Under the pieces are notes generated by a model. That model had not been told where the DNA came from, made no database searches, and saw nothing but the letters and a program-made list of their open reading frames with translations. DNA of 6,192 bases. Origin: Chloroflexota bacterium. GTDB lineage: Bacteria > Chloroflexota > Anaerolineae > UBA4142. Below, in pieces: positions 96 through 6,191 of the stretch (its first letter is position 1; each line of letters opens with the position of its first letter). The stretch spans positions 1 through 6,192 of the forward strand of contig JAMCRS010000110.1 of NCBI GenBank assembly GCA_023380675.1, in the 5' to 3' direction. A program made the position numbers and the translations under genes.

Positions 96-1301
96 GTACG
101 CCGGATGCGGCGGCGATCCCAGCGAGATACCGCTCTCGCCTGCGGACGGGAACAGTCCGCCCGGCTGCTCCCAGTTAGCGCAGATCGCGTTGACGATGGC
201 CATCGCACGCTCTGCCTGGAACGAGTTGACAAAGTTGGACGTGCGCCAGTTGTTGTGGACGAACGCATGCGGAGCCGCGTGGGCGAATTCGCGCGCGATG
301 CGGCGAATCGTCTCAGCCGGAATCTCGGTCTTGCTCGCCGCCCATTCCGGCGTGTACGGCTTGATCGCTTGCGCCAGATCGTCGAAGCCGACCGTGTATT
401 TCGCGACGAAGGCCTTGTCGTACAGTTCCTCCGTGACGAGCACTTGCAGCATGGCGAGGAAGAACGCCAGGTCGGTGCCGGGGCGAATCGCCAGCCATTC
501 GGTCGCCTTCGAGGCTGTTTTTGTGAATCGGGGGTCGAGCACCACCACCTTGGCGCCGCGCGCGATCGCCTCGATCATCTGCTGTGTCTCGGAATTGGAG
601 ATCGCTTCCGCGAGATTGCGCCCGGCGTAGACGATGTATTGGACCGCGCTGTAATCGCGGTCCGGCTCTTGCATTCCGAACGTCATCAGATTGGCCAGGA
701 TCATCGCATTGAAGCAGAGGGAACGCTGCGTCCCGTAGTTGGGTGAGCCGAACGCACGCAGGAGATTCTCGAATTGCGTCTGCGCGAGGTTGTGGGTCGA
801 CGAGAACACCATCGTCTCCGCGCCGAACTGCTGCTTGATCGCCTGCATCTTTTGCGCCGTGTAGTCCAGCGCGTCCTCCCACGAGATCCGTTTCCACAAG
901 CCGCTCCCGCGGTCGCCCGCCCGCATCATCGGAAAACTCAGGCGGTCGGGATCGTACAGCGTCGCGACGCCGGCCTGTCCGCGCGGGCAAAGCATCCCGT
1001 TCGAGTGCGGATGGTTCGGATTGCCGTCGAGCTTGTACACCTTGCCGTCTTTGATTTTCGCGCGCACGCCGCAGCGCCACACGCATTGCTCGCACAGCGT
1101 ATAGACCTCACGGTCGAACGTCACGGGCGGCAGATTGGCGTTGCCGCGCGACGCGGGCGTGCCGCTGCCGAGCAGCCACGGCGCAAGGGGGACCGAGCTG
1201 AGCGCCAGCCCGCCCAACGCGGCGGTGCTCAACCCCAGAAATTCGCGGCGGGATACTTGCCAATCGAATATGTCGCCGACTTTGATTTCACGATCACGCA
1301 T
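60..1301 (-). CDS. Tat-exported molybdopterin oxidoreductase, polysulfide/thiosulfate reductase-type catalytic subunit (C-terminus missing)
   Basis: Catalytic subunit of a complex iron-sulfur molybdoenzyme that should act outside the cytoplasmic membrane. The ATG at 1301 is chosen because a GGAG lies just upstream and a twin-arginine signal follows at once (SRREFLG, residues 17-23, then a hydrophobic stretch to about 45). A [4Fe-4S] motif is seen at Cys70, Cys73, Cys77 and Cys105 (CEQC, C, then MLCPRG). Cys196 in RSLCFN is the likely Mo ligand, as in polysulfide/thiosulfate reductases and periplasmic nitrate reductase. Homologous-looking sequence ends near residue 402 (base 96). The remaining residues to the stop at 60 come from the fold-back and are not native. 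Family members usually have 700 or more residues, so roughly half is absent. It lies 53 bases after the YeeE/YedE pair, which suggests a sulfur substrate (inference). Arsenate, tetrathionate or other oxyanions are alternatives; the specificity-determining half is not visible. Confidence 0.9.
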   Translation of the reverse strand: MRDREIKVGDIFDWQVSRREFLGLSTAALGGLALSSVPLAPWLLGSGTPASRGNANLPPVTFDREVYTLCEQCVWRCGVRAKIKDGKVYKLDGNPNHPHSNGMLCPRGQAGVATLYDPDRLSFPMMRAGDRGSGLWKRISWEDALDYTAQKMQAIKQQFGAETMVFSSTHNLAQTQFENLLRAFGSPNYGTQRSLCFNAMILANLMTFGMQEPDRDYSAVQYIVYAGRNLAEAISNSETQQMIEAIARGAKVVVLDPRFTKTASKATEWLAIRPGTDLAFFLAMLQVLVTEELYDKAFVAKYTVGFDDLAQAIKPYTPEWAASKTEIPAETIRRIAREFAHAAPHAFVHNNWRTSNFVNSFQAERAMAIVNAICANWEQPGGLFPSAGESGISLGSPPHPAYPGIRTGRSRRK

Positions 1302-1354: not shown

Positions 1355-1912
1355 TTACGAATTCACCTTGTCTTTTCGCAGCTCGCCGTGCCGTTCGAGA
1401 AAGTAGAGCAGCGTGAGCGTCGCCGACACGAACAGGAGCACCGTCAGCCACAGGTTGATGTCCAGGGCGGTCGGCAGGATCGCGTTGCCAAAGTTGGCGA
1501 TCGCGGAGATGGCCGGGAATACGGACTGGTAGGTCGCGCCGTAAATGATCGCGCCCGTCAAGAAACCGAGCAGACCGGGAATCAGATAGTCGAGATTGCC
1601 TTGGCCGCTTCCAGCGGCGCACGTGCCCGGTCAGAAGCCGGCGCCGGCCATGCCGACGCCAAAGATCAATCCTCCCACCAGATTGCCAACGACGAACGTG
1701 GCGGGGACGGCCGGCAGCTGTGTGATGCCCGCCGTGTTCAGTGCGAACACGCCGACCATCGAGACGGCGAGTGCCGTCATCATGAACTTCAACACGGCGA
1801 GATCGGTAAAGCGAAAGACATTGACGATCTTGTGATACTTGCTCAGGCCGGCCTTTTGCAGCGACCAGCCAAAGCCGATGCCGAGCGCCAGCGGCAGGAT
1901 AATGTCGTTCAC
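1355..1912 (-). CDS. YeeE/YedE-family sulfur transport protein, second component; selenoprotein with Sec94 encoded by in-frame TGA
   Basis: Integral membrane protein of the YeeE/YedE family (thiosulfate/sulfur-species import in characterised members). A GTG start at 1912 overlaps the preceding stop (TAGTG), implying translational coupling. Residues 12-58 show the family signature: GFGWSLQKAGL, then a KxxxxFRFTDLAVLKFMMTA-like stretch. Residues 76-93 lead into the core motif, where the normal Cys of CPGT is a TGA codon (1633-1631), giving GFUPGTC at 92-98. The same frame continues without another stop to TAA at 1357-1355, adding 91 residues with two more membrane helices and a charged C-terminus (ERHGELRKDK). 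Total 185 residues including Sec. An SECIS-like hairpin follows the TGA. A Cys-to-stop sequencing error is the alternative, but the hairpin argues against it. A separate gene starting at TTG 1561 is unlikely, since family homology covers the region between. Bases 1513-1607 recur inverted at the contig start. Confidence 0.85.
1604..1618 (-). promoter_or_regulatory. Bacterial SECIS-like hairpin for Sec insertion at TGA 1633-1631
   Basis: On the mRNA strand, GCCGCU-GGA-AGCGGC forms a perfect 6-bp stem with a GGA loop. Counting from the base after the UGA, the stem occupies positions 13-18 and 22-27 and the loop 19-21. Bacterial SECIS elements lie in the coding sequence just downstream of UGA, with the apical loop roughly 16-37 nt away and a G in its first two loop bases; this hairpin meets both conditions. 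The lower stem is weak (C-C mismatch directly below). The hairpin lies inside coding sequence (encoding AAGSG), so it is not a terminator, and no U-tract follows. Confidence 0.7.
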
Positions 1913-2436
1913 TAGAATTTCCTCCAATACATCAGGATGGCGGTGGGAATGCCCGATGCGAACATGCCCCCCATGAAGATAAAGGCGGCCGGCGCGAGAA
2001 ACAAGCCGCCGCCGACGGCCAGCCCGCTGGTGCAGCCGCCGGCAATGCCGGCGCCGTATTCCAGGATGATGCCGCCGAGAAACGCGATCGCCCAGCGCTT
2101 GCGGACGGAGTCGCCGAATACCTTGCGCCACTGCGCGTCCGGCACTGCCGCCAGCTTGAAATCGCCGGAGAGCTTGGCGGATAGGAACGCGCCGGCGACT
2201 ATGCCAGCCAGCAGCACGACCTCCCACGAAATCCCCGGCGGCATTACGAACTTGAAGTACGTATTGCCTGCCAGCGCCGGCGCAACAGCCTGTGCGACCA
2301 GACCGGCGACGTTCTCGAACGCGCCGGAGGCGCCGGGAATCACGCCGGCGACGGCGATGCTGAGGATGTAGACGACGCCCAGCAGCGCGCCGGCCAGGTA
2401 GGGTGACCATTCTTTTTGCTTCAACAGTGCAATCAC
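1912..2436 (-). CDS. YeeE/YedE-family sulfur transport protein, first component
   Basis: Membrane protein of 174 residues, one half of a split YeeE/YedE transporter; the other half follows with a one-base overlap. The GTG start at 2436 is supported by GAGGGG about seven bases upstream; no in-frame ATG is better placed. Predicted helices lie at about 12-34, 71-89, 114-131 and 146-168. The diagnostic motif is GGIILEYGAGIAGGCTSG (residues 121-138), with the conserved cysteine at 135. In characterised YeeE/TsuA proteins such cysteines line the thiosulfate path. Here the first half keeps its Cys while the partner carries Sec at its corresponding motif. Residues 90-112 form a polar segment between helices. 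The gene starts 75 bases after the cytochrome gene and is probably co-transcribed with it. The exact substrate (thiosulfate, other sulfane sulfur, possibly selenium species) cannot be decided from sequence. Confidence 0.9.
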   Translation of the reverse strand: MIALLKQKEWSPYLAGALLGVVYILSIAVAGVIPGASGAFENVAGLVAQAVAPALAGNTYFKFVMPPGISWEVVLLAGIVAGAFLSAKLSGDFKLAAVPDAQWRKVFGDSVRKRWAIAFLGGIILEYGAGIAGGCTSGLAVGGGLFLAPAAFIFMGGMFASGIPTAILMYWRKF

Positions 2437-2511: not shown

Positions 2512-3462
2512 CTACGCCTTCATTTCCTTCGCGAGCGCGAGCAGCGCCGCAAGCGCTTTCTGATCGCTCTCGCTCAGCGCTGCGAGCGACCGCAAGTCCG
2601 CGCGGCCGATCGCCTTCAGGACCTTGGGTCCCTTTTCCCGATCCGAGAGCAGCCGTGTGACTGCGTCGAGCGTCGCCGGATCGTTCGCGGCGAGCAGGGG
2701 CAGCAGCGCCTCGAGCTCGGGCCGTGCGACCAACTGCTTCGGCAGGTTGAGCGCCGCGCCTTCCGGCGTCGCCGATACGAGCACCGGCATTGCCTGCCAA
2801 CGCCGGAGGGTTAGCACGAGGCGCTCGAACGGACGCTCGTAGTACCAGACCAATCCACCCAATACCAGCAGCATGACGACGATCAAGCCGACCACGGCCA
2901 AGTTGCCCAGGATGTTGGGGGGAGGCAGATTCAACCCTGCGTACGCTTTGTTCAAATCGATCGTCTGGCCGCCTGTCGGTTCGGCGGGGCCGCACGGCGC
3001 AACCGCCGCTGCCGTTGTCGTCACAGCGTGTGTTGCGACGGTCGTCGTGATAGCGCCGGCCCCGGCGGGCGCGGCGCCGCTGGGCGCCGTCGCGGCGCCA
3101 ATTGTCTTGCCGAGCGCGCTCGCATACGTTTGCGCTCTTGCCTCATAATCATTCGGGTGGCACGACTGGCAGCTCCCTTTCACGTCCGCAAGCGGGTCGA
3201 TCAGGCCGGCGTGTGCGCTCGCTTCGTCCTTTGCTTTCACGTTGCCGGCGTGGCAGAACTCGCAAAAGTCGCCGAACGCGTGCTGGGAGTGCCACGCGCC
3301 CTTTGTGCTGACCGGGTCCTTGGCCTGGGTCTCGTGGCAGCTCTTGCACGACGACGCGGACGAGCCGCACTGCGCGGCGGCCGGACGGGGCCAGGTCAAC
3401 GCCGCGATCAAAGCGAGCGCGCTCGTCACGAGTAAGAGAAATCCAATGTGTTTCTTGTGCAT
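2512..3462 (-). CDS. Membrane-anchored triheme cytochrome c with cytoplasmic helical C-terminal domain
   Basis: A 316-residue electron carrier. The ATG at 3462 is preceded by AGAGGAG at a somewhat long spacing. Residues 1-31 form a Sec-type signal peptide ending PAAAQ. Three heme c sites follow: CKSCH (39-43), CEFCH (67-71) and CQSCH (98-102). Extra histidines (58, 61, 84) could serve as distal ligands. Residues 112-165 are an Ala/Thr/Pro/Gly-rich linker. A single transmembrane helix lies at about 184-207, followed by roughly 110 residues that are Leu/Ala-rich and probably helical on the cytoplasmic side, with no motif I recognise. The topology places the hemes outside, where they could exchange electrons with the exported molybdoenzyme encoded downstream. 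First gene after the leader terminator, so it is the gene that read-through control would act on. Heme sites are certain; the redox partner is inferred. Confidence 0.88.
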   Translation of the reverse strand: MHKKHIGFLLLVTSALALIAALTWPRPAAAQCGSSASSCKSCHETQAKDPVSTKGAWHSQHAFGDFCEFCHAGNVKAKDEASAHAGLIDPLADVKGSCQSCHPNDYEARAQTYASALGKTIGAATAPSGAAPAGAGAITTTVATHAVTTTAAAVAPCGPAEPTGGQTIDLNKAYAGLNLPPPNILGNLAVVGLIVVMLLVLGGLVWYYERPFERLVLTLRRWQAMPVLVSATPEGAALNLPKQLVARPELEALLPLLAANDPATLDAVTRLLSDREKGPKVLKAIGRADLRSLAALSESDQKALAALLALAKEMKA

Positions 3463-3789: not shown

Positions 3790-4575
3790 TCACGCCGTGG
3801 GGGAGCCGGCGATTTCCGCGACCTTCTTCAGCCGCGTAAGCAGTTCGAGCCGTTCCTGGCCGATGTGCGAATACGTGTCCGCGACAAGTTGCAGCAAATT
3901 GAGCAGGCGTTCAGCCTGGCCCTTTTGCAGCACCCGCGCGTCTCTTGCGGCGTGCGTCAGATCGTTCTCGTCCACGTCACAGGCGTGCGCCAGCTTGGCG
4001 ATGTGCGCCGGGGCGCGCAGCGACGAGGCATCATCGACCATGAATTGCCCGACGAAGCACATGGCGACTAACTGCCCGTTCACGACGACCCGTCCACCCG
4101 CGTATGTGAAACCGGCGTGGCACATTTCAAGACGCGACTGCGGGTCGTTTCGGTTGGCGAGCCTTTTCCACGATGCTTCACAGCGCAACCGGCCCTTTTC
4201 GGACCCGAGCATCAAATTGCAGAATGAACACGAATTGCTCACCGGCGTCTGAGGCTTGCCGTTCAGGTCTGTCGTCACCGCGCCGACCATGCTTGTCTGT
4301 GCGAATACCTCCTGAATCGGTTGGAGGCAATAGAGCGGCAGGACTTGGACGTCGATCGGCGGAGTGGTTTCCCCACCGGCGCCAGACCTCTTCGATTCGG
4401 CCGGCGGCGCCGGTTTCTGCTCGCCCAACCATTTGTCGATCACCTGCCGCGGAAAACGCCATTGACCGCCGACACGCATGCCGGACAGTCGACCATCGTT
4501 GAGCATTCGATAGATGGTCGTTCGGTCGACTTGCAGCAGGTCCATTAGCTGCTTTGTGGTCAGCAGGTCTTCCAT
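3790..4575 (-). CDS. Transcriptional regulator: excisionase/MerR-type HTH fused to PocR sensory domain
   Basis: A 261-residue one-component regulator, cytoplasmic. Residues 3-53 form the HTH_17/excisionase-type DNA-binding domain (LTTKQLMDLLQVDRTTIYRM, then GRLSGMRVGGQWRF and VIDKWL). Residues 54-75 are a Pro/Ala/Gly linker. Residues about 79-185 match a PocR ligand-sensing domain, with conserved cysteines Cys116 and Cys119 (CSFC), Cys132 (RLRCEASW) and Cys152 (MCHAGF), then VVNGQLVAMCFVGQF. The last 60 residues are helical. PocR domains sense small hydrocarbon-type ligands in known cases, but the Cys cluster could also bind metal or respond to redox or sulfur state (inference). The ATG at 4575 is used because the HTH begins right after it; its ribosome site is poor (GGTGTGGG). 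TTG at 4608 would add 11 residues. It is encoded upstream of, and in the same direction as, the sulfur-redox genes, so it is their probable regulator. Confidence 0.88.
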   Translation of the reverse strand: MEDLLTTKQLMDLLQVDRTTIYRMLNDGRLSGMRVGGQWRFPRQVIDKWLGEQKPAPPAESKRSGAGGETTPPIDVQVLPLYCLQPIQEVFAQTSMVGAVTTDLNGKPQTPVSNSCSFCNLMLGSEKGRLRCEASWKRLANRNDPQSRLEMCHAGFTYAGGRVVVNGQLVAMCFVGQFMVDDASSLRAPAHIAKLAHACDVDENDLTHAARDARVLQKGQAERLLNLLQLVADTYSHIGQERLELLTRLKKVAEIAGSPTA

Positions 4576-4598
4576 GCACCCACACCATACATCTGGTT

Positions 4599-4638
4599 GC
4601 AATAGCAATCAATAGCATATTTGGTCAAAATAGGTCAA
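4599..4638 (-). promoter_or_regulatory. Putative regulator promoter with tandem TTGACC repeats
   Basis: On the minus strand TTGACC occurs twice, ten bases apart (4638-4633 and 4628-4623). Each is followed after an 18-base spacer by a TATTG-type hexamer (TATTGA at 4614-4609, TATTGC at 4604-4599). The region is strikingly AT-rich against the GC-rich surroundings and lies 24-63 bases upstream of the ATG at 4575. It may be two overlapping sigma70-like promoters, or a pair of operator half-sites on one helix face for autoregulation. Read by eye only. Confidence 0.4.
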
Positions 4639-5257
4639 AATTTGATACACAGCCGGGCCACATCTTGCAGAGCACGTATCTCGACCGCGACTCGTTCTGT
4701 CTGATCGAACTAACGCGCCCGGCGAGTTAGCTGTTGCTCAGAGGGGATTGGGCTTGCGCCCTCAGACGAGAATCGAAAACCGCCAAACGACCTGACAAGT
4801 CACTTGGCGGTTTGCTTTGGATTTACCCCGTGCGCAGCCGAACCTCATGCGGGATCGGTTGCGCGTCCTGACGGCGGCCGGCCTTTAGGTCTGTTACACG
4901 CGGACCCAAACACGATCCAACTGCTAACGCGTTCCTGTCGCAAATTTCGGCAACGCGATCTGTCCGAGATGCTTTGCACCTCTAGCTGAAAGTATCCGCC
5001 GACCAGCTTCGTCTCTCCCGGGCCGCCCGGTCCTGGTCTCGCCGGCGTCGGCCGCGGCGGCAAATCGGCCTGCGCCGCCTGCACCGTCGTTAGCGTCGTA
5101 GGGGGTGGATGATTCTGAATCACCCGGCAGTTGCATTAATCGCGAGGTCGTGTAAACTGTCGCTCCATTCCATTCGTACGCTACGGATTCGAGTTGCGAT
5201 GCGCCCCATCTATCGAGTTTCGTGTGTTCTGGTAATCCTCCGTCATTCCCATGGCAT
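4639..5257. other. Intergenic region between divergent loci, no supported gene
   Basis: No reading frame here has both a credible start and family-like protein sequence. Overlapping frames of 60-130 codons exist on both strands. The most placeable is a minus-strand GTG frame (5123-4845), Pro/Gly-rich in its first third, which ends 32 bases before the hairpin at 4813-4777; it lacks a ribosome site and I do not call it. Small hairpins such as GGGC-TTGC-GCCC (4750-4761) and CTAAC/GTTAG (4710-4730) are present. I tried to read the 4715-4790 stretch as a tRNA and could not. Promoters for the plus-strand genes at 5258 presumably lie near the right edge but are not obvious. Confidence 0.6.
4777..4813. 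terminator. Terminator-like hairpin in the intergenic region
   Basis: AAACCGCCAA pairs perfectly with TTGGCGGTTT (10 bp), with GAC/GTC able to extend the stem across a two-base mismatch. On the minus strand the stem ends in TTTT; on the plus strand GGTTTGCTTT follows. It therefore resembles a bidirectional intrinsic terminator. No confident gene ends next to it on either strand, so it may mark the end of an unrecognised small gene or RNA, or insulate the divergent loci. Confidence 0.55.
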
Positions 5258-5701
5258 ATGGTGAACAACTCGAAAACGACCAGTCGCCGGACGTCTGGCG
5301 CCCTGCTTAGCGGTGCGATCATCGCGTTGTTCGCGGCTCAAATCGTTGTCGGGGCAGTGCACTTGGAGAACACCGCCGCGACAATGCTGATCGCGCCAAG
5401 CCTCACTTACACGGACAAGATGTATGTGCAGTGGCGTGACGTGTACGTCCTCCTCGACTTTGTGAGTCGCGAGACTCCGCCTACCGCCGTCATTCTCATG
5501 CCAGAAGACGAAAGGCCTGAGTTCGATCAGTATTTCCTATTTCCGCGTCGCGTGATCTACGGAAACGACGCCGCGCTGCGAGACAACCCACAGATCGACT
5601 ATGTTCTCATCGTCGGTGAGTATCCACAGTTCGCCGTCGAGGGCTCTAGAATCATGCTGGACGGTACCCACGGGCTGGTCCGGCTGGACAAGTCTAGATG
5701 A
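5258..5701 (+). CDS. Hypothetical membrane-anchored extracytoplasmic protein, coupled to downstream GT-C-like gene
   Basis: A 147-residue protein I cannot assign to a named family. The ATG at 5258 is preferred because it directly precedes a short basic, polar segment (NNSKTTSRRTSG) and one hydrophobic helix at about residues 14-36, so the rest faces outside. GTG 5222 is an alternative, and neither has a clear ribosome site. The outer domain has a conserved-looking core: DFVSRETPPTAVILMPED, then FDQYFLFPRRVIYG at about 89-102, and DYVLIVGEYP at about 117-126. That Y-FLFPRRV / D-YVLIVG pattern resembles small extracytoplasmic partners or domains found beside polytopic glycosyltransferase-like proteins (inference). 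Its stop overlaps the next start (ATGA), so the pair is translationally coupled. Bases 5491-5576 recur inverted at the contig end. Confidence 0.7.
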   Translation: MVNNSKTTSRRTSGALLSGAIIALFAAQIVVGAVHLENTAATMLIAPSLTYTDKMYVQWRDVYVLLDFVSRETPPTAVILMPEDERPEFDQYFLFPRRVIYGNDAALRDNPQIDYVLIVGEYPQFAVEGSRIMLDGTHGLVRLDKSR

Positions 5702-6186
5702 TCGTCGTCGCCTTGGTAGTGGCTTTGTCCTCGCTCGGATGGGTGGCGACTGGCGCGCTGTCTTCCGACCTGGACCCGCTCGAACGATTTGGACTGGCGT
5801 ATGGGATCGGCAGCGGTATTTTGACGCTCGGAGTCTTTCTCGGTGCGGTCTTTGGGGTTGCGATCATCCTACCGAGTGTGGCCGCGATCTACCTTCTGTT
5901 GTTGCTTGCCGCCGCGTGGCTCTTGCGCCGGCGCGGCGGTCTGTTGGTTCCGTCGGTGCGCGTGCTCCGATTTGACTTGGCGCAATTCGTCATCGCCGGA
6001 TCGATCGCGTTGGTTCTCGCCGTGTCATTCGCCGCGGCCGCCTACTGGCCGCCCTACATGTGGGATTCCCTTGCGGTCTGGGCGCTCAAGGGTAAGGTGA
6101 TCGCCGCGCGGCGTCGTTTCCGTAGATCACGCGACGCGGAAATAGGAAATACTGATCGAACTCAGGCCTTTCGTCTTCTGGCATGA
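5698..6186 (+). CDS. Polytopic membrane protein, GT-C/ArnT-like glycosyltransferase type (C-terminus missing)
   Basis: N-terminal part of an integral membrane protein. The ATG at 5698 overlaps the upstream stop by four bases. Native sequence covers about residues 1-136; from base 6106 the frame runs into the fold-back and ends at 6186 in roughly 25 spurious Arg-rich residues. Four helices are visible: about 1-21, 31-53, 54-77 and 96-118. The loop DPLERFGLAYGIGSG after the first helix, and the WPPYMWDSLAVWALKGKVI segment after the fourth, look like lipid-linked-sugar GT-C proteins. In those proteins an acidic residue in the first large outer loop and a W-x-K pattern recur. This fits cell-envelope glycan assembly with its coupled partner, but too little is present to name an enzyme. 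Confidence 0.65.
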   Translation: MIVVALVVALSSLGWVATGALSSDLDPLERFGLAYGIGSGILTLGVFLGAVFGVAIILPSVAAIYLLLLLAAAWLLRRRGGLLVPSVRVLRFDLAQFVIAGSIALVLAVSFAAAAYWPPYMWDSLAVWALKGKVIAARRRFRRSRDAEIGNTDRTQAFRLLA

Positions 6187-6191
6187 GAATG
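6106..6191. repeat. Right-end fold-back: inverted copy of 5491-5576
   Basis: Bases 6106-6191 are the exact reverse complement of 5576 down to 5491. Only the very last base of the window (6192) does not continue the match. Past the inner edge one mismatch (6105/5577) is followed by four more matching bases (6101-6104), possibly junction microhomology. The copied segment is the middle of the upstream small membrane-protein gene. It truncates the polytopic membrane protein. Its sequence is unrelated to the left-end repeat, so the two are not terminal repeats of one transposon. Confidence 0.95.

Follow-up and report, generated by a model that had tools for sequence, protein, structure and literature searches.

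A half-size YeeE/YedE membrane protein of Chloroflexota and Bacillota as a predicted selenoprotein encoded beside a PsrA/PhsA-like molybdoenzyme

A gene for a YeeE/YedE family membrane protein on contig JAMCRS010000110.1 of a Chloroflexota bacterium (assembly GCA_023380675.1) is interrupted by a single TGA codon, which raises the question of whether this codon ends the gene, marks it as defective or is decoded as selenocysteine (Sec). The window, that is, the whole stretch of DNA that was analysed, has a length of 6,192 nucleotides, and its features are collected in Table 1. A sequence-only reading had proposed that the gene runs through the TGA and that Sec takes the place of a functional cysteine of the family. 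The minus-strand frame on which the proposal depended was reproduced: it runs for 185 codons from GTG 1912-1910 to a TAA at 1355, and TGA 1633-1631 is its sole in-frame stop. The read-through protein matches PF04143 over residues 29-181 (77.6 bits against a cut-off of 27). This match spans the TGA, so the family-like sequence that had been noticed beyond the codon is confirmed on both sides of it. The evidence described below indicates that this half-size YeeE/YedE protein is almost certainly a selenoprotein, as predicted from sequence.

Table 1. Features of the 6,192-nucleotide window discussed in the text
Feature	Position	Strand	Basis or remark
PsrA/PhsA-like molybdopterin oxidoreductase, N-terminal part (translated stretch)	132..1301	(-)	cut at chimeric end
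N-half subunit, YeeE/YedE (PF04143), 185 aa, predicted Sec at residue 94	1355..1912	(-)	ORF, Pfam, alignment
bSECIS-like hairpin: 6-bp stem, loop GGA, 18 nt after TGA	1604..1618	(-)	hairpin search, shuffles
In-frame TGA, putative Sec94 codon, aligned with TsuA Cys91	1631..1633	(-)	codon survey, alignment
C-half partner, YeeE/YedE, GGCTSG Cys135 corresponding to TsuA Cys293	1912..2436	(-)	Pfam, alignment
Three-CxxCH haem protein, membrane segment by eye only	2512..3462	(-)	conserved upstream of pair
Regulator, HTH_17 and PocR sensory domain	3790..4608	(-)	Pfam; relative upstream of pair in 8/54 fetched loci

The contig itself is chimeric. Positions 1-95 of the window are a perfect (100%) inverted copy of 1513-1607, and positions 6101-6191 are a 99% inverted copy of 5491-5581; inverted contig ends of this kind resemble chimeras that arise from whole-genome amplification or assembly. 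The TGA at 1633-1631 falls outside both inverted arms. Two ORFs lie at 5222-6186 on the plus strand, the second of which runs into the inverted contig end, and neither has a Pfam or NCBIfam match at an E value of 0.001. An Rfam search of the window returned nothing at an E value of 5 or better, and none of the NCBIfam selenoprotein models matched the window protein at an E value of 0.001.

Whether Sec-containing YeeE/YedE proteins had been described before was a point that the sequence-only reading could not verify. One had been catalogued already, WP_012471001.1, which appears in a 2022 catalogue (PMC9312934) and in a 2026 catalogue (PMC13188914), but its motif is a different one. By its catalogue entry, WP_012471001.1 belongs to the same Pfam family and is likewise a predicted selenoprotein. 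The motif entered for it in 2026 is GUxSG, whereas GUxSG occurs at 0 of the 51 Sec sites assembled here, in which the residues following U are PGT. The GUxSG motif would instead suit the GGCTSG of the partner protein or the GGCASG of the thiosulfate transporter TsuA. PMC13188914 credits the entry to PMC2398784 and PMC5029168, and the terms YeeE, YedE, DUF395 and COG2391 are absent from the main texts of both. Searches of open-licence papers brought up no description of the UPGT form. A membrane transporter had also been called an unusual place for Sec; this holds, but the case is not unique, as PMC13188914 lists a few further predicted Sec transporters for which no role has been worked out.

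Relatives of the window gene were picked by a genome scan with six peptide patterns from the window protein. Further homologs with an in-frame TGA, for which the sequence-only reading had suggested a search, exist: the codon at the Sec94 site is TGA in 41 of 54 genomic relatives, TGC or TGT in 13, and TAA or TAG in none, although, because the patterns were derived from the window protein, 41:13 is not a population ratio. None of the Sec-type genes among the 54 contains a second TGA in the matched stretch. In samples drawn by phylum, a close relative was found in 8 of 400 evenly drawn genomes of Chloroflexota (the phylum of locus L001), with an internal TGA in 6, and in 10 of 398 genomes of the phylum of the Desulfosporosinus locus L038 (scores above 230 bits), with TGA in 9. 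The phylum samples supplied 11 genes that were new to the first set (9 with TGA, 2 with TGC), and the total rose to 51 Sec sites, including the window, and 15 Cys sites. The Sec codon recurs in two phyla, Chloroflexota and Bacillota.

The motif at the Sec site is G[F/Y/T]UPGT in all 51 cases. The UxxxC pair that had been pointed out in the window (Sec94 and Cys98) is present there, but it does not stand as a general feature, since the residue at +4 from Sec is Cys in 36 of the 51 proteins and Leu in the other 15, which come from Desulfosporosinus and its close kin and have a Cys at +8; the UxxxC pair is therefore a feature of lineages. Beyond the subfamily, 21 weaker matches (up to about 129 bits) from the phylum of L038 were searched for Sec at this motif, with at most eight candidates scored per genome. 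Nineteen are free of internal stops, the TGA of G467 is the end of a Cys-type gene rather than a Sec site, and G836 has two internal TAA codons. In the phylum of L051, PF04143 occurs in at least 93 of 282 genomes among the matches listed. Seven loci from this phylum were read, of which six had been picked out by a TGA and one by a TAG; the CPGT site was found in six and is Cys in all six, and the GCxSG site typical of the partner is Cys in all seven.

Selection acts on both sides of the codon. For the 15 gene pairs compared, every computable dS far exceeds the corresponding dN on either side of the TGA; for the window and L001 the dN/dS values are 0.132/0.984 before the TGA and 0.109/0.666 after it. 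A tree of 62 rows, built by a quick method, implies eight switches between the Sec and Cys states, of which four or more fall on well supported branches. The genes at L024:3761 (TGT) and L033:6280 (TGA) are sisters with a protein identity of about 99%, and the Sec/Cys codon is the only difference in 42 aligned bases. A hairpin for which a Cys codon would have no use survives in the gene at L024, and its persistence points to a recent change from Sec to Cys.

A search of protein databases with the read-through form returned 765 relatives, and among the 120 listed the residue at the site is Cys in 117 and Trp in 3, a listing biased by gene callers that stop at TGA. This agrees with the placement of the TGA at the Cys of the CPGT motif by the sequence-only reading. 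P0003 and two others have the Trp, perhaps because their genes were called with TGA as Trp (code 4). A search with the 93 residues preceding the TGA returned 1407 proteins. The best 120 of these, the window protein among them, all terminate just before the Sec site, in GAGF, AAGF or GSGF, as judged from the protein records alone; 119 are 93 aa long and one is 98 aa long. Because these best 120 of 1407 records end before the codon, the second half of the protein is absent from their annotation. Two of the 93-residue stumps, P0168 and P0185, are named YeeE/YedE by their source databases. P0168 is also found in nr, as a YeeE/YedE family protein, and is the only one of the 120 listed records in nr.

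The genomes of relatives possess the machinery for Sec insertion. The search covered 49 relatives' genomes, those of L039, L041, L043, L047 and L048 being left out, and detected selB above its cut-off in 43, selA in 43 and a tRNA-Sec above 60 bits in 42. Each of the 36 Sec-type genomes has two or more of these three genes. Neither selA nor selB nor a clear tRNA-Sec was detected in G010, G014 and G018, which are Cys-type genomes (3 of the 13; Fisher p 0.016). Eleven further genomes, 9 of the Sec type and 2 of the Cys type, were searched for selB and tRNA-Sec, and both are present throughout. The machinery is also kept by 12 of the 15 Cys-type genomes. The limit of 60 bits for tRNA-Sec was set by us, the Rfam limit being 47 bits, at which 45 of the 49 genomes pass, including G010 (48.9) and G014 (47.5). 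The higher limit was adopted because hits of the size of those in G010 and G014 also occur beside a clear tRNA-Sec elsewhere and in control genomes. Of 14 controls, 5 reach 47 bits for tRNA-Sec, 2 reach the cut-off for selB and 1 reaches that for selA. The hits of 47.5-48.9 bits in G010 and G014 are presumably other long-arm tRNAs.

Bacterial SECIS (bSECIS) elements are described in PMC13188914 as hairpins located 16-37 nt after the UGA that have a stem of at least 4 bp, a loop of 3-9 nt with a G in its first two places and an energy of -7.5 kcal/mol or lower. The window hairpin (Table 1) falls within all of these limits, the energy of the isolated hairpin being -8.7 kcal/mol. For the counts across genes, a hairpin was defined by the same loop and spacing and by a stem of at least 6 bp, with energy left out. 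Such a hairpin is present in 42 of 42 Sec genes, compared with 12.0 expected from synonymous shuffles, and in 4 of 13 Cys genes, compared with 3.5 expected. In 39 of the 42 genes the distance from the UGA to a hairpin with a GG loop is 17-19 nt; in L005, L011 and L030 the longest stem lies further on. The shuffle P for the stem of individual genes ranges from 0.013 (window) to 0.553 (L052); since the stem of a single gene is often reachable by synonymous shuffles, the strength of the signal lies in the set. For 39 of the 42 the isolated hairpin lies within the -7.5 kcal/mol limit, and it is weaker in L002 (-6.0), L004 (-7.3) and L005 (-7.3). The mean folding-energy z relative to synonymous shuffles is -1.77 for the Sec set and -0.23 for the Cys set; taken alone, the window hairpin stretch has an ordinary folding energy (z -0.06).

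A fixed six-pair model of the hairpin, derived from the very sequences that were scored with it, has all six pairs formed in 32 of the 42 Sec genes. Over the Sec set 93.4% of cells are paired, against a shuffled mean of 80.5%, and 40 cells are changed on both sides, against a shuffled mean of 14.6; 0 of 500 shuffles were as high in either measure. Slid versions of the model reach 75.4% paired at most, and the Cys set does no better on the model than its shuffles (67.9% against 67.2%). Of the five covariation measures, two did not rise above the shuffles: the count of pairs showing two-sided change (3) and that of further pair types (7). At two of the three pairs the two-sided changes separate the Desulfosporosinus group from all others, and thus represent few events. 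In the nine Sec genes found later the best stem is 5-8 bp, with at least 6 bp in eight and 5 bp in the ninth; the two later Cys genes have best stems of 5 bp (31 nt from the codon) and 2 bp.

These results bear on three readings in which the TGA is not a Sec codon. The window is a low-quality record, being a chimeric contig with inverted ends, and a sequencing error, or a true stop in a pseudogene, could be suspected for that reason. However, the TGA recurs at 50 further loci in many assemblies, some of them of named isolates, 119 other proteins among the best 120 of 1407 stop at the identical place, and purifying selection continues past the codon; an error or a pseudogene is thus very improbable, and at the level of the family this reading is refuted. 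Decoding of UGA as tryptophan, or readthrough by an ordinary tRNA, would be in line with the three listed full-length homologs that have Trp at the site, unless these stem from code 4 gene calls. It is hardly credible given the Cys in the other 117, the hairpin, the Sec machinery and the lack of a second TGA in the matched stretches of the Sec genes. Moreover, TGA ends 82 of the 296 ORFs that belong to clusters common to at least five loci, in 37 of 42 Sec loci, a count that leaves out the N-half genes. General use of UGA as another amino-acid codon, which the sequence-only reading had listed as a refuting finding, is contradicted by this count, and TGA is an ordinary stop in these loci. The UGA might also end a first peptide, with translation restarting downstream to yield a transporter in three pieces, and in a mechanical ORF list a second ORF does begin soon after the TGA in several loci. 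Against such a restart, the interruption is TGA in all 51 genes and never TAA or TAG, the Cys-type genes are continuous, and the hairpin and machinery suit Sec decoding, which makes it most unlikely. Sec in place of a functional Cys, by comparison, is upheld by the codon alternation, the hairpin, the machinery of relatives, the use of TGA as an ordinary stop and the recurrence in two phyla.

The Sec protein would be one half of a channel. The stop codon of the C-half gene and the GTG start of the N-half gene overlap by one base. The C-half (174 aa) scores 60.9 bits with PF04143, against the cut-off of 27, and on this profile of 310 positions the N-half covers 10-160 and the upstream C-half covers 171-307. 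Sequence profiles place Sec94 in the column of Cys91 of TsuA and Cys135 of the partner in the column of TsuA Cys293, the latter by a weak match (E 0.0077). The Cys of the partner's GGCTSG motif is kept in 54 of 55 loci, including the window (one is unreadable), and in 11 of 11 later loci. Both Cys91 and Cys293 of TsuA are reported to be indispensable (PMC11582611). The pair resembles TsuA/YeeE of Spirochaeta thermophila (PDB 6leo, 8j4c) in having equivalents of both cysteines, and differs from it in consisting of two half-size proteins rather than one, in having Sec for Cys91 and in lacking a counterpart of Cys22. It falls outside the full-length TsuA/SoxT type, which is a single protein of 330-350 aa with three conserved Cys, and the N-half scores far under the cut-offs of the TsuA models (37.7 of 400 bits for NF052577 and 37.8 of 645 for NF041049). 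No TusA-like protein was found among the operon proteins that were annotated.

Short paired proteins of this family, PmpA and PmpB, are proposed in PMC11582611 to form heterodimers in which PmpB corresponds to the N-half and PmpA to the C-half. By their description, the PmpA/PmpB pairs of Serratia and others are likewise split, with one conserved Cys per half; the proteins here are 185 and 174 aa rather than about 130, have Sec in the N-half and are encoded in an operon that includes a PsrA/PhsA-like enzyme. Structure models of the two halves were poor (pLDDT 65.0 and 49.5), and a fold search of the PDB with the first model gave 28 matches, none at an E value of 0.001 or better. These models have no bearing for or against a channel fold, and the mapping rests on sequence profiles, from which it is very likely that the N-half and C-half form a split TsuA-like channel.

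The gene pair adjoins a PsrA/PhsA-like gene in both Chloroflexota and Bacillota. The usual order is triheme protein, C-half, Sec N-half, PsrA/PhsA-like molybdoenzyme, FeS protein and NrfD-type membrane protein, often followed by a cytochrome b and a multihaem cytochrome. The triheme protein has three CxxCH motifs in all 50 cases counted. In 55 loci, many of them incomplete, the clusters include the molybdoenzyme in 52, the FeS protein in 41, the NrfD type in 38, cytochrome b in 28 and the multihaem cytochrome in 23. Three of the 55 have no PsrA-like gene: in L025 and L037 the contig breaks off behind the N-half, and the third, L051, is a Cys-type locus. Of the 11 later loci, 10 encode the molybdoenzyme; the exception is L057 (G482:C13:34000-46000), where the Sec gene and its partner occur with triheme-like and cytochrome b genes and without a PsrA-like gene within 12 kb. 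Compared with PsrA/PhsA systems, this operon adds the triheme protein, the transporter pair and often cytochrome b.

The best solved match of the molybdoenzyme is PsrA 2vpw, filed as a thiosulfate reductase, and the Cys at chain position 173, which we take to be the Mo ligand, is conserved. The scores with the PhsA model NF012032 (cut-off 694 bits) are all under the limit, at 593.8 for L007, 617.8 for L038 and 377.8 for the window fragment. The enzyme of L007 scores 21.5 bits for a twin-arginine start, just below the Pfam limit of 22.7. From its sequence the molybdoenzyme likely has such a start, and it is probably exported. At the operon ends of L013:11281-12315 and L054:10887-12167 there are cytochromes that resemble ExtP/ExtQ and ExtM, with scores under the curated cut-offs.

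In the mechanism proposed here, UGA 1633-1631 would be decoded as Sec with the aid of the hairpin just downstream. Sec94 would replace the pore cysteine that corresponds to TsuA Cys91, and the adjacent C-half would provide the second, Cys135. The two halves together would form a path across the inner membrane for a sulfur species, be it sulfane sulfur, polysulfide or thiosulfate, and the pair would work beside the PsrA/PhsA-like enzyme with its FeS, NrfD-type and cytochrome subunits. Sec is more acidic and more nucleophilic than Cys and is ionised at neutral pH. An ionised Sec may outpace Cys in binding and releasing sulfane sulfur. Since the operon also encodes a Psr-like respiratory complex, the pair most likely moves the substrate, the product or a signal of that complex. 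We infer Sec insertion, transport, its substrate and direction, and the benefit of Sec from the genomic data. The best explanation as a whole, a Sec-containing N-half of a two-subunit sulfur channel beside a Psr-like enzyme, is considered likely; a sulfur species is the probable cargo, and a direct link of the pair to the Psr-like enzyme seems reasonably probable.

The cargo of the selenoprotein could instead be selenium, or the protein could sense selenium status, so that the transporter would regulate itself through Sec decoding. In the same superfamily, YedE has been linked to the use of selenium and occurs in archaea as a split protein (PMC5322559), and the operon cytochromes similar, below cut-off, to ExtP and ExtM recall selenite/tellurite reduction. 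Selenium as the cargo is unlikely, however, in view of the score with the selen_YedE_FdhT model (NF033796; 27 of 350 bits, far under the cut-off), the PsrA/PhsA nearest match of the neighbouring molybdoenzyme and the occurrence of Cys-type genes of this operon in G010, G014 and G018, where selA, selB and a clear tRNA-Sec are lacking.

According to PMC2398784, most selenoproteins of known function are oxidoreductases. Here Sec would sit at the equivalent of a TsuA pore cysteine reported to be indispensable (PMC11582611), and the conserved operon provides a concrete setting for a predicted Sec transporter. There is about an even chance that these genes represent a large, mis-annotated class of channels in which a selenolate in the permeation path makes sulfur transport dependent on selenium, tied to Psr/Phs-like respiratory complexes in Chloroflexota and Bacillota. 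If the proposal is true, the repeated natural Sec/Cys swaps would allow a direct test of what Sec contributes to a transporter, the near-identical pair L033/L024 being a natural experiment on Sec in a sulfur transporter. Regulators encoded upstream of the pair are of the ArsR type in 28 loci and have a PocR domain in 9, including the window, and both kinds are found in L002, L005 and L011.
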